From NCBI GenBank assembly GCA_902768125.1, contig CACXKA010000020.1, forward strand, positions 1 through 43,960: a stretch of 43,960 nt of DNA, given 5' to 3'. This DNA is from an uncultured Bacteroidales bacterium (GTDB taxonomy: Bacteria > Bacteroidota > Bacteroidia > Bacteroidales > Bacteroidaceae). Below are positions 34,653 to 37,932 of the stretch, piece after piece. Below the pieces are notes generated by a model. It was not told the DNA's origin and ran no database searches. It was given only the letters and a program-made list of their open reading frames with translations. The position numbers and the translations under genes are program-made. Positions within the stretch are counted from its first letter, which is position 1. Each line of letters starts with the position of its first letter.

Positions 34653-35666
34653 ATGAAAGTCAAGGAAACATGGGTGGAGAAAGGCTATGTGGATGAGCCT
34701 ATTCCTGAAGGTATTGATTTGAATGCCGAGATTCGTCGCATGTGCAAGGAAAAGAATGCGGTGATTCTGGCGCATTACTACACAGATGGAGCCGTGCAGG
34801 ACATTGCCGATTTTGTTGGCGATTCTTTGGCTTTGGCACAATGGTCAGCCAAGACCGACGCCGACATCATTGTAATGTGTGGTGTGCACTTCATGGGTGA
34901 GACGAACAAGATACTTTGTCCAAACAAGAAAGTGCTGGTGCTTGATTTGAATGCCGGCTGTTCTTTGGCGGACAGTTGCAAGGCTGAAGATTTGAAGGCA
35001 TTCGTCGAGGAACATCCAGGTTACAAAGTGGTGAGCTATGTGAACACCACGGCGGCTGTGAAGGCATTGACCGATGTTGTCGTGACCTCAAGCAATGCTA
35101 AACTTGTCATCGATTCATTTCCTGAAGATGAGAAACTTATCTTCGGTCCCGACAAGAACTTAGGCAACTATATCAATTCCGTCACAGGACGCTCCATGCT
35201 CTTGTGGAACGGTGGTTGTCACGTGCATGGACAGTTCTCTTTGGAGAAGATTCTTGCCCTCAAGGCAGAGCATCCTGATGCCAAGATTTTGGTGCATCCA
35301 GAGTGTCCTGCACCTATCCAGAAGGTAGCAGACGTGATTGGTTCCACAGCAGGATTGCTGAACTTCGCCATCAAGGACGAGGCGACAGAATTTATTGTAG
35401 CGACGGAAAGTGGCATCCTGCACGAGATGAAGAAGGCGTGTCCCGACAAACTCTTCATACCAGCACCACCAGAGGCGACAGAGACCATCGGTTGTTCTTG
35501 CAACGAATGCGAGTTCATGAAGCTGAACACCCTAAAGAAGCTCTACAACACCCTCAAGTACGAATGGCCCACCATCGAGGTAGATGCCGACATTGCGGAG
35601 AAAGCGGTGAAGCCGATTGACAAGATGCTGGAGATATCAAAGACCCTCTCCCCGCCCTCCCTATAG
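34653..35666 (+). CDS. nadA: Quinolinate synthase NadA
   Basis: A 337-residue [4Fe-4S] enzyme that condenses iminoaspartate with dihydroxyacetone phosphate to give quinolinate, the first ring of NAD. Motifs are AVILAHYYTDGAVQDIADFVGDS, the conserved cysteine in VMCGVHFMGET (C76), WNGGCHVHG (C189), and the C-terminal cysteine cluster GCSCNECEFM (C281/C283/C286). Length fits. The last seven residues (TLSPPSL) and the stop codon lie in the left inverted repeat of the DUF559 element, so the natural end of the protein has been replaced or extended. nadB is not in the window. Confidence 0.95.
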   Translation: MKVKETWVEKGYVDEPIPEGIDLNAEIRRMCKEKNAVILAHYYTDGAVQDIADFVGDSLALAQWSAKTDADIIVMCGVHFMGETNKILCPNKKVLVLDLNAGCSLADSCKAEDLKAFVEEHPGYKVVSYVNTTAAVKALTDVVVTSSNAKLVIDSFPEDEKLIFGPDKNLGNYINSVTGRSMLLWNGGCHVHGQFSLEKILALKAEHPDAKILVHPECPAPIQKVADVIGSTAGLLNFAIKDEATEFIVATESGILHEMKKACPDKLFIPAPPEATETIGCSCNECEFMKLNTLKKLYNTLKYEWPTIEVDADIAEKAVKPIDKMLEISKTLSPPSL

Positions 35667-35675
35667 GGAGGGAGC
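35640..35675. repeat. Left inverted repeat of the DUF559 element
   Basis: A 36-bp repeat containing the perfect palindrome ccctccctatagggaggg. It matches the repeat at 36111-36146 in inverse orientation with 34 of 36 bases. It overlaps the end of nadA and supplies its TAG stop. Confidence 0.9.
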
Positions 35676-35702
35676 AGATAGCTCAACCAATAGATTTATT
35701 TC

Positions 35703-36071
35703 ATGTGGAATCATAGGACGGCTTCGCCTGATCGATATTTGCTGTTGAAAGAATGGGCCAGAGAGAATCGTAAGAATATGACGCTGGCGGAGTCTTTCTT
35801 GTGGCAGAATCTTCGGGCGAATGTTTTGGGTCATAAGTTCCTGCGGCAACATATCATTGGAGATTACATCGTGGATTTTGTGTGCCGCGATGATGGGTTG
35901 ATTATTGAGGTGGATGGGGCATATCATTCAGAAAGAGAGCAAGTGCAGAATGATGAAATCCGAACCCATGATTTGGAATCGATGGGTTTTCGGGTGATTC
36001 GCTTCACGAATGAAGAGGTCCTGTATGACATCGAGTCCGTTCTTGAAGAAATAGAGAACCAACTTAAATAA
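35703..36071 (+). CDS. DUF559 (PD-(D/E)XK-like) endonuclease domain protein
   Basis: A 122-residue DUF559 protein, related to the very-short-patch-repair endonuclease fold. The N-terminal part ARENRKNMTLAESFLWQNLRANVLGHKFLRQH is the family signature. The nuclease core is GDYIVDFVCRDDGLIIEVDGAYH, with the Asp and the E-V-D pair expected to bind metal, then FRVIRFTNEEVL at the end. The gene is exactly enclosed by two 36-bp inverted repeats (35640-35675 and 36111-36146), giving a 507-bp unit between nadA and mnmA. No promoter is evident. It may be read through from nadA. DNA cleavage activity is likely by family but untested, and the target is unknown. Confidence 0.87.
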   Translation: MWNHRTASPDRYLLLKEWARENRKNMTLAESFLWQNLRANVLGHKFLRQHIIGDYIVDFVCRDDGLIIEVDGAYHSEREQVQNDEIRTHDLESMGFRVIRFTNEEVLYDIESVLEEIENQLK

Positions 36072-36076
36072 GCATA

Positions 36077-37219
36077 GTGAATCCAACGAACACCATAGTC
36101 GATAGTAACCGCTCCCTCCCTATAGGGAGGGCAGGGGGAGGGTCTTCCATCGCAGCGTTAGTTTCAGGTGGAGTCGATTCTGCTGTTTCGGTGCATTTGC
36201 TGAAAGAGCAGGGAATTGACCCACATCTGTTTTATATCAAGATAGGTCCCGACAAGGACACGGAATGGAACTGCACCTCAGAGGAGGATGTGGAGATATG
36301 TCAGTGGCTGGCACGGAAATATGGGCTGAAACTCGATGTGATTGACCTGCACAAAGAGTATTGGGACAAGGTCGTCGGCTACACGATGGACAAGGCCCGT
36401 GTCGGTCTCACCCCCAATCCCGATGTGATGTGCAACAAGTTCATCAAGTTTGGCTGCTTTGAGGAGGTGGCAGGCAAGGACTTCGACTATACGGCGACAG
36501 GACATTATGCCACCACCACCCAAATCGGTGACACCGTTTGGCTCTCCACCTCTCCCGATCCTGTCAAGGACCAGACAGATTTCCTTTGCCAGATTGATTC
36601 CTTGCAGGTGAGCAAGCTCATGTTTCCGATTGGACATCTCTGGAAACACGAAGTGCGTGAAATTGCTGAAAAGGCACACTTGCTGAATGCGGAACGCAAG
36701 GACAGTCAGGGTATTTGTTTCTTGGGAAATATCGATTTCCGCGACTACATCAAGGCGCATCTGGGTGAGAATCCAGGCGATGTGCGTGAGATAGAGACAG
36801 GACACAAGATAGGGGAGCACAAAGGTTTGTGGTTCTACACCATCGGACAGCGTAAGGGCTTGGGCTTTGGCGGTGGTCCTTGGTTTGTGGTGAAGAAGAA
36901 CATCAAGCGCAACATCCTCTTTGTCTCTCATGGCTACGACCCCGAGAAGGTGTACAAAGACCATGTGACGATGAACGATTTCCACTTCATCAGCGGCAAT
37001 CCGTTTGCCGAAGGGTGGGGCGATGCCCAGAAGGGGATGCGAGTCACCTTCAAGATTCGTCACACGCCCGAATATCTGGGTGGCGTGCTGTCCCGAAAAG
37101 ACGACGGACGCTGGTTCCTCCAAGCCGATGAGAAAATACACGGCGTTGCCCCCGGTCAGTTCTGTGTGGTCTATGACCAGGAACATCACCTCTGTTTCGG
37201 CAGCGGAGAGATAGATTGA
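36077..37219 (+). CDS. mnmA: tRNA 2-thiouridylase MnmA
   Basis: A 380-residue enzyme that thiolates U34 of tRNA-Glu, -Gln and -Lys. The PP-loop is SGGVDS (30-35). The two catalytic cysteines are C119 in NPDVMCNKFIKFG and C214 in GICFLG. Other conserved parts are TGHYA, DQTDFLCQI, GLWFYTIGQRKGLG and the C-terminal beta domain ending with CFGSG. The only start in reach is GTG 36077. Residues 12-25 (RSLPIGRAGGGSS) are translated from the right inverted repeat of the DUF559 element, so the natural start has been lost or replaced. The enzyme core itself is intact. Confidence 0.92.
   Translation: MNPTNTIVDSNRSLPIGRAGGGSSIAALVSGGVDSAVSVHLLKEQGIDPHLFYIKIGPDKDTEWNCTSEEDVEICQWLARKYGLKLDVIDLHKEYWDKVVGYTMDKARVGLTPNPDVMCNKFIKFGCFEEVAGKDFDYTATGHYATTTQIGDTVWLSTSPDPVKDQTDFLCQIDSLQVSKLMFPIGHLWKHEVREIAEKAHLLNAERKDSQGICFLGNIDFRDYIKAHLGENPGDVREIETGHKIGEHKGLWFYTIGQRKGLGFGGGPWFVVKKNIKRNILFVSHGYDPEKVYKDHVTMNDFHFISGNPFAEGWGDAQKGMRVTFKIRHTPEYLGGVLSRKDDGRWFLQADEKIHGVAPGQFCVVYDQEHHLCFGSGEID
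36111..36146. repeat. Right inverted repeat of the DUF559 element
   Basis: The inverse copy of 35640-35675 (34 of 36 bases), with the same 18-bp palindrome. It lies inside the mnmA reading frame and encodes a Pro/Gly/Arg-rich N-terminal stretch. Confidence 0.9.
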
Positions 37220-37322: not shown

Positions 37323-37495
37323 AGGGGACAAGGGGACAAGGGGACAAGGGGACAGCTATTTTCTGCACCCCCTCCTTTTGAGGATATATATTGATAGTAA
37401 TTAATAATAATATATATTTAATAATAATTAATTATCAAGAAGAAGATGATGGGTGAGGGCAGGGAAAATGCTTGTCCCCTTGTCCCTCTGTCCCC
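37323..37495. repeat. Four aggggaca tandem copies with an inverted partner
   Basis: Four perfect copies of the 8-bp unit aggggaca (37323-37354) are mirrored by tgtcccc-type copies at 37471-37495, where 23 of 25 bases are complementary. The roughly 115 bp between them are AT-rich with taataat runs that also pair loosely, so the whole segment could form one long stem. The rest of the 338-bp gap between mnmA and the gene at 37558 shows no gene. Confidence 0.75.
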
Positions 37496-37530
37496 ATCAT
37501 AAACACACCCCACGCTTATCTTCCAGCAGA

Positions 37531-37554
37531 TGCCGCTTATTGCTCAATAAGGCA
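37531..37554. repeat. Isolated CTTATTG/CAATAAG hairpin
   Basis: TGCC-CTTATTG pairs with CAATAAGGCA with one bulged G and a two-base loop. It lies 4 bp beyond the stop of the minus-strand gene at 37558. The arms resemble the last block of the palindrome array near 19615. No T run follows, so a terminator role is doubtful. Confidence 0.6.
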
Positions 37555-37557
37555 GGG

Positions 37558-37932
37558 TTATTTGGGATCGTAATCTGTTTCTCCCGTTCCGTTCAGCCAA
37601 TTACTCAGGTTCACTTTGTTCAGGTTGGTGCCAAAACGGTTATTGTACCATTCTGCATCAATTGGAGGCAACAGCACCTCTGCTTCCATCGCTGCGCGTT
37701 GGGGCATCAAGGCAGGGTACAGCTTCTCCTCATCGGTGTAGTCCTCCGGCTTCGTCTCTTTCTTCTCGTGGCAATAGTTGTTCTGATTCTGGATGGTGTT
37801 CACGTGTTGCGCTCCCGATGCCACATACACCAGATTGATGTTGCATTCACGCTGATCTCGCTCCGTCTGTTGCAATTGTCGTAGCAGACGGCTGAAGAAG
37901 TCAAAGGCTTCCTCCTCTTTCTCAATATTCAT
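37558..37932 (-). CDS. Small hypothetical protein
   Basis: A 124-residue acidic, Gln/Asn-rich soluble protein. The N-terminus is helical (IEKEEEAFDFFSRLLRQLQQTE), followed by a stretch VYVASGAQHVNTIQNQNNY. A similar YVA/IQ-QN pattern occurs in uncharacterised proteins of Bacteroides and Prevotella, but I cannot name a family and the call is weak. No signal peptide or membrane segment. It lies directly downstream of the structured RNA (T run at 37968-37974, 36 bp before the ATG), so it may be expressed by read-through of that terminator. Confidence 0.5.
   Translation of the reverse strand: MNIEKEEEAFDFFSRLLRQLQQTERDQRECNINLVYVASGAQHVNTIQNQNNYCHEKKETKPEDYTDEEKLYPALMPQRAAMEAEVLLPPIDAEWYNNRFGTNLNKVNLSNWLNGTGETDYDPK

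Follow-up and report, generated by a model that had tools for sequence, protein, structure and literature searches.

We identified a 507-bp unit that is probably a minimal mobile element, built from a single DUF559 (PF04480) nuclease gene enclosed between two inverted 36-bp repeats, each of which contains a perfect 18-bp palindrome. The unit lies between nadA and mnmA in a 43,960-nt stretch of DNA from an uncultured Bacteroidales bacterium (hereafter the window), which is contig 20 of a 2.78 Mb assembly (genome G000). As judged from sequence comparisons, the nuclease would drive, in a homing-like manner and within an anatomy like that of REPINs (REP doublets forming hairpins, where REP stands for repetitive extragenic palindromic), the spread both of its own unit and of gene-less doublets of the same repeats. 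The pairing of DUF559 genes with flanking inverted repeats recurs in at least three phyla.

A nuclease gene enclosed by inverted palindromic repeats

The inverted repeats of the window unit extend over 41 nt each (35640-35680 and 36106-36146) and are 90% complementary. Our arm test, applied to DUF559 places in general, took 350 bp from either side and scored the best inverted repeat without gaps between the two flanks; the window unit scored 31, while none of 371 random window positions reached 17 and none of the 32 other window genes reached 15. The triplex-like pattern CCCTCCC-N4-GGGAGGG-N0-3-GGGGAG occurred twice in the window, in both repeats, and in none of 100 shuffles. Chance repeats were rejected on the strength of control positions, control genes and shuffles. 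Together with the repeat comparison and the Pfam match of the gene, the same controls confirmed a first-pass annotation of the window, which had described a DUF559 gene enclosed by inverted 36-bp repeats with 18-bp palindromes. Its statement that the unit lacks a transposase also stood, since the unit's protein matched no transposase family, Pfam giving DUF559 and MTES_1575 only. The unit does not sit cleanly between two genes: nadA has its stop codon within the left repeat, and the mnmA frame, taken at its longest, crosses the right one. By eye, no T-run follows the hairpins of the window, and intrinsic terminators were rejected on this ground.

The window protein matched PF04480 with an E-value of 5.1e-35 (120.1 bits, against a curated cut-off of 20.6). 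Residues E30, D58, E69, D71 and H75 (window numbering), which we take to be catalytic, were invariant in a 55-sequence alignment (A3). A profile of 24 DUF559 proteins matched an endonuclease-like protein (PDB 3hrl, E 6.8e-32) and a mobile intron protein (3r3p, E 1.6e-8), and a Foldseek search with an AlphaFold2 model of the window protein (predicted local distance difference test, 89.6) returned 3hrl (E 2.2e-7), 3r3p, which is the homing endonuclease I-Bth0305I (E 7.7e-5), and, less strongly, Vsr (E 0.02). The modelled fold thus resembles the catalytic domain of a homing endonuclease and more weakly that of Vsr. No intein was matched by the window protein in the Pfam search, and no intron was noted for the unit, introns not having been searched for by model. 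Published reports have already placed a DUF559 gene in the EDxHD homing family (PMC9403480), mentioned YcjD when surveying the PD-(D/E)XK superfamily (PMC1189080), and held a Caulobacter DUF559 protein responsible for a DNA-damage response of cells without a methyltransferase, proposing it as a Vsr-like repair protein (PMC12907096).

Filled and empty alleles at the nadA-mnmA junction

mnmA was found in 43 of the 45 genomes of the genus, and the nadA-mnmA junction was read in all 43. Three junctions (G000, G003 and G023) were filled at the same point, and the other 40 were empty, with 35 to 246 bp between the two anchors used for all. These empty sites support the proposal of the first-pass annotation that the cassette is able to move or be copied. 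The closest sister, G006, is empty and about 99% identical to the window over the compared NadA and MnmA stretches; its junction measures 41 bp, as compared with 509 bp in the window, so that the 507-bp unit takes the place of about 39 bp. No target-site duplication was seen when filled and empty alleles were compared and the flanks inspected by eye; target bases are replaced instead.

Because the nearest relatives of every carrier are non-carriers, at least three presence/absence changes are needed on each of three trees (nadA, mnmA and both together), and the pattern therefore requires repeated arrival at one point, between-species transfer or repeated loss. Between G000 and G003 the DUF559 DNA is 82.0% identical and the adjoining nadA and mnmA stretches 82.3%; the corresponding values for G000 and G023 are 74.1% and 81.0-82.9%. 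Given this divergence relative to that of their neighbours, the nadA-mnmA units do not represent a recent burst. The ratio of nonsynonymous to synonymous substitution rates between the G000 and G003 genes (dN 0.071, dS 1.30, dN/dS about 0.055) points to purifying selection.

Two further features were observed at these junctions. The G003 unit (L083 / L104) carries a third palindrome, located after the left arm and before the DUF559 gene, so that the unit contains a complete doublet. At two junctions without the unit (L079 and L080), GAGGGGGAGGGTCT or GAGGGGAAGGGTCT at the start of mnmA almost matches the unit's outer end, which may reflect target resemblance or an old scar; GGTCT, noted by eye at some junctions, is a candidate target motif.

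DUF559 genes are flanked by inverted repeats in several phyla

We examined the window's genome together with 100 relatives, in which the protein was matched in 37 genomes, giving 60 DUF559 places (including the window's own and short remnants). Of these, 37 scored at least 17, as compared with 2 of the 315 random positions tested in other loci. Among named GTDB genomes, 43 of 80 loci (the best 80 of at least 565 confirmed candidates, mostly Bacteroidota) scored at least 15, as against none of 143 control positions. The DUF559 family was also present in 31 of 114 sampled Gammaproteobacteria (the class of a Methylomonas genome) and in 40 of 59 sampled genomes of the cyanobacterial phylum (that of a Scytolyngbya genome). 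Scoring in these two samples and in three other genomes covered fetched loci with strong matches rather than every listed match, and inverted repeats occurred at 15/22 DUF559 units versus 0/40 controls, 24/30 versus 0/58, and 3/4 versus 0/6, respectively. At least seven places sit in two sets (for example L199/L051, L206/L236, L204/L231, L195/L237, L197/L232 and L152/L234), and the fractions are not to be pooled.

Neighbouring genes used as controls never reached 15 (0/18 and 0/17), and among 141 genes in 72 mnmA and PriA loci only three did so, these being the DUF559 genes of G000, G003 and G023. The expectation that the palindromes flank DUF559 genes at unrelated positions therefore held in several phyla, although not for all DUF559 genes. 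Three DUF559 copies (L036, L037 and L038) contain stop codons, with strong arms kept in two of the three, and appear to be decaying units.

At the search sensitivity used, matches to the window protein came from 3 of the 50,697 records in the phage collection and from 37 of the 72,556 in the plasmid collection, some of the plasmid records being chromosome-sized. Phage or plasmid cargo was rejected as the usual setting, since matches are rare in both collections. Seven of the 40 records found were arm-tested, and three scored at least 15: L363 (20.5), L365 (23.0) and the phage clone L367 (17.0), whose repeat is not a GC-rich palindrome. For a Neisseria gonorrhoeae DUF559 gene, which has motif-like repeats on either side, the score was 14.0; the other loci scored 14.5 (L362), 8.0 (L364) and 9.0 (L366).

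The arms are specific to each unit

We compared the arms of 27 units which, except for the window's own, came from genomes carrying at least two DUF559 genes. The left and right arms of one unit matched each other (score of at least 17) in 22 of the 27, while arms of different units within a genome matched in 5 of 56 comparisons, four of them involving two pairs of G086 units whose proteins are similar. The rarity of such matches led us to reject the notion that the arms are generic genome repeats located there by coincidence. At some orthologous sites found in several species, such as L007/L012 or L016/L020/L024/L042, the arms match within each unit and differ between species; at another set (L019, L021, L022, L038 and L039) one short 12-bp arm is common to all. 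Among units scoring at least 17, and with host relatedness not corrected for, protein distance correlated with arm distance (r = 0.16, n = 103, with 0 of 2000 permutations as high), as it did when one unit was taken per site (r = 0.13, n = 83, 8 of 2000 permutations as high), suggesting that arms are weakly more alike where the nucleases are closer.

Gene-less doublets replace target DNA

The pattern CCCTCCCTNYAGGGAGGG occurs with up to one mismatch in 21 of the 45 genomes of the genus, reaching 67 forward and 70 reverse matches in G037 and 47 and 49 in G003; read backwards, it was present in none of the genomes listed. Across 37 loci of relatives we found 12 inverted doublets and 18 singles, the singles including both arms of the G023 unit itself. 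The spacing was exactly 64 or 76 bp in 10 of the 12 doublets, whose typical ends are AGACCC...GGGTCT, and the eight that were measured are 109-122 bp long. By eye, the stretches next to these ends (AGTGGTATC... and ...GGTAACC) are similar to the subterminal sequence of the G023 and G003 DUF559 units. Gene-less copies are thus present in relatives; no further copy was found in the window's own genome, where CCCTCCCTATAGGGAGGG, allowing up to three mismatches, occurs at just two places in 2.78 Mb, both in the unit's repeats.

For eight doublets, the genus was searched with the joined flanks and the junctions were read in the 30 loci returned. Empty sites were found for six of the eight (29 comparisons, a self match, L355, having been dropped); for L114 and L211 there was none among the 30 loci read, further L114 places being listed. 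Five of the six sites with empty alleles have fewer target bases when filled. By site, the net loss was 26 bases (7/7 comparisons), 22-23 (13 comparisons) and 20 (one comparison), and at the remaining shortened sites 40 and 52 (two comparisons) and 2-14 (three comparisons). The net change was a multiple of three in 28 of 29 comparisons (those at one site not being independent), as expected if the doublet sites lie in coding sequence. No flanking direct repeat indicative of target duplication was seen by eye.

Insertions inside other genes

In the genus of G244 (cyanobacterial phylum), where 33 genomes were searched, 4 of the 29 PriA junctions read carry a DUF559 insertion, in frame and within a variable linker. 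A short in-frame stretch in the PriA of L326 looks like a scar. Other in-frame stretches, unrelated to DUF559 and with 42 to 309 bp between the anchors, were also observed in this linker (Table 1), which appears to be a hot spot for small insertions.

For the remaining proteins the examination covered domains. In two genomes from different families of the order (L025 and L027), the leucyl-tRNA synthetase (LeuRS) frame contains a DUF559 domain at corresponding positions, just before the region for editing, with degenerate palindromes on the flanks and scores of 18.5 and 14.5. DUF559 domains also lie in frame in, or are fused to, IspE (L272), MmeI-like and other restriction-modification proteins (L231, L258, L281 and L283) and DNA methylases (L236 and L294). 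In the L294 methylase frame (L294:334-3315), a match to the intein C-terminal splicing domain, scoring above its cut-off, comes after the DUF559 domain, making an intein with DUF559 as its homing domain possible.

Triplex-motif repeats and E. coli ycjD

Both window arms consist of a 7-bp stem, a loop, the second half of the stem, a short loop and a third G-run. This is the layout of the intrastrand triplex motif repeats (TM-ECO, PIT and BoxC) described by Holder et al. (PMC4666352), and a triplex could form. That paper reports that no mobility activity was found near its motifs. In E. coli MG1655, the stop codon of ycjD, a gene annotated as DUF559, is followed after 167 bp by an exact TM-ECO motif at record positions 1351205-1351239; this motif is evidently the same copy as motif 9 of PMC4666352, given at 1351204-1351239. 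A degenerate motif was recognized by eye at the end of ycjD. The gene is patchy: 3364 of 5426 E. coli genomes have a match spanning 80% or more of the query. In ycjD-less strains (L224-L226), a TetR-type regulator lies beyond fabI in one and a major facilitator superfamily efflux gene adjoins sapF in two.

The enzyme family and the repeats are each already known, but we found no link between them in the literature searched. No report connecting DUF559, YcjD or Vsr with inverted, palindromic or triplex repeats (including CCCTCTCCC) was retrieved from a search of mostly titles and abstracts, in which subscription journals and bioRxiv were partly covered. For 100 such palindromes in an Enterobacter genome, a role in termination was presumed (PMC2869309), and the movement of small bacterial repeats was left open in the available part of Delihas 2007 (PMC2229807).

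Table 1. Location of the unit, its parts and neighbouring genes in the window, and of PriA linker stretches in other loci
Feature	Location	Strand	Remarks
Whole 507-bp unit	35640..36146	+	between nadA and mnmA; not at 40/43 genus junctions read
Left 36-bp repeat	35640..35675	+	outer end AAGACCC; nadA frame ends in it at 35666
Left perfect 18-bp palindrome, CCCTCCCTATAGGGAGGG	35655..35672	strand-neutral	
DUF559 (PF04480) endonuclease-like gene, 122 aa	35703..36071	+	Pfam match, modelled fold, dN/dS
Right 36-bp repeat	36111..36146	-	inverted copy of left repeat, outer 36 bp 34/36 identical; mnmA frame reads through
Right perfect 18-bp palindrome, CCCTCCCTATAGGGAGGG	36114..36131	strand-neutral	
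nadA	34653..35666	+	left repeat replaces final codons
mnmA	36077..37219	+	original start replaced; open frame now from GTG 36077, inside unit
PriA linkers with non-DUF559 stretches	L305, L313, L315, L316, L318, L319, L322-L325, L327, L328		

Downstream of mnmA, an open reading frame of 143 aa (37453-37884) had no Pfam match at E 0.001.

A model for movement and its alternatives

We propose that the sole gene of the unit encodes a single-domain Vsr-like/EDxHD-type nuclease that would recognize the unit's own ends, which are inverted, GC-rich palindromes with the potential to fold into hairpins or triplexes. The nuclease would then break the target or the element, and repair of the break with the element as template would paste in a copy. 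The outcome seen at most sites read, in which some 20-50 bp of target are commonly lost and nothing is duplicated, is compatible with such a route. Copies keeping the two ends and a short spacer would become the 109-122 bp gene-less doublets, on which the nuclease would presumably act in trans. As the repeats are translatable, insertions near or inside genes would survive wherever the reading frame is maintained, and the dispersed PIT/BoxC-type repeats of other phyla may be debris of the same kind.

Several observations weigh against this model. The correlation between protein and arm distances is weak (r 0.13-0.16), uncorrected as it is for host relatedness, and many DUF559 places have no good arms (23/60 with remnants included, 37/80, 7/22 and 6/30 in the sets given above). 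The window's palindrome has no further copies in its own genome at up to three mismatches. At one of the six doublet sites, L119, the filled allele has 16-19 bp of extra target bases (three comparisons). At least three forward palindrome matches were found in three of the four carriers of a window-type gene (G000, G003, G023 and G037) and also in 9 of 41 genomes without it, so the link between palindrome count and the cognate gene appears not strong. At ycjD the two motifs, one exact and one degenerate, both lie on the 3' side, the arm-test score is only 9.0, and a simple empty site was rejected, as the three ycjD-less strains read have other genes beside fabI or sapF.

The same data bear on three other explanations. 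The unit could be a free-standing homing endonuclease gene whose product cuts a single conserved target, the nadA-mnmA junction, into which the gene is then copied, the palindromes serving as binding sites or hitchhikers that the nuclease does not move; its presence at the same point in three separate lineages, its I-Bth0305I-like fold and the L294 frame, where the DUF559 domain precedes an intein C-terminal splicing match, are in line with this, but DUF559 units of the same type occur at many unrelated sites and the same ends are dispersed without a gene in relatives, which makes this explanation unlikely. We consider it rather more doubtful that another enzyme, or slippage during replication or recombination, moves the palindromes with DUF559 as compatible cargo. 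Such passive carriage would account for palindromes in genomes without a window-type gene, among them the nine of 41 noted above, yet it is at odds with the specificity of the arms to each unit and with the finding that at least three phyla have members of the DUF559 family enclosed in this way, when control positions and other genes almost never were. An ordinary Vsr-like very-short-patch repair gene with REP-like terminators on either side is very improbable: the repair role proposed for the Caulobacter protein (PMC12907096) and the weaker structural match to Vsr speak for it, but it fits neither the patchy presence with replaced target bases, the empty sites already having weakened it, nor the gene-less copies with the same ends, nor the hairpins, which by eye lack a T-run.

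These considerations favour the element moved by its own nuclease. We more tentatively extend this model to a multi-phylum class of elements that a lone PD-(D/E)XK-type (DUF559) nuclease would drive by break-repair insertion, with replacement of target bases and in-frame tolerance, and which might be the source of the triplex-motif/PIT/BoxC repeats. Equally tentative is the proposal that this class moves without a transposase, integrase or relaxase. The triplex-motif/PIT/BoxC repeats have been reported from more than 260 bacterial genomes, and the DUF559 nuclease is a good candidate for the missing mover of this widespread repeat family. A nuclease gene bracketed by triplex-layout repeats in at least three phyla provides a named, testable enzyme for repeat movement, and the question can be tested in E. 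coli K-12, which has ycjD as well as the motifs. If true, mobility would be achieved by a nuclease of about 120 residues, and the presence of foreign segments within genes, for example the LeuRS and PriA genes, would be explained.

Comparison with known systems

REPINs combine a small enzyme gene bracketed by inverted palindromes with gene-less inverted doublets, and the unit, together with the doublets in the window's relatives, shares this anatomy. The REP-associated tyrosine transposases (RAYTs, or TnpA-REP) are HUH single-strand enzymes, whereas the enzyme here is a Vsr-like/homing-type nuclease with no HUH (Y1) match in Pfam. The unit also differs in lacking the GTAG/CGTC tag of REP repeats (PMC3733652), the foot of the window repeat reading AAGACCC by eye. 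Lacking both a HUH enzyme and a tag, the unit was not filed under the RAYT family.

With I-Bth0305I (EDxHD, PDB 3r3p) the unit shares the predicted fold of the catalytic domain and the existence of filled and empty alleles at fixed points (3/43 at nadA-mnmA and 4/29 in PriA); it differs in being framed by palindromes, in occurring at many sites and in having gene-less derivatives. Its terminal inverted repeats recall those of classical (DDE) insertion sequences and miniature inverted-repeat transposable elements (MITEs), but without a target duplication it was not filed under classical insertion sequences. The Rickettsia palindromic elements and MITEs (PMC2229807) are similarly palindromic, of about 100-200 bp and in some cases fused in frame; the descriptions available there give no DUF559 partner, and several of the MITEs have target-site duplications, of which none was seen here. 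With the TM-ECO, PIT and BoxC repeats, some of which form inverted pairs, the window repeats share the hairpin (stem, loop, stem), short loop and third G-run arm, although the stem is 7 bp long, as compared with 9 nt in the TM-ECO consensus. Overall, the unit appears to be like the REPIN/RAYT system in its anatomy and like a homing endonuclease in its enzymology.

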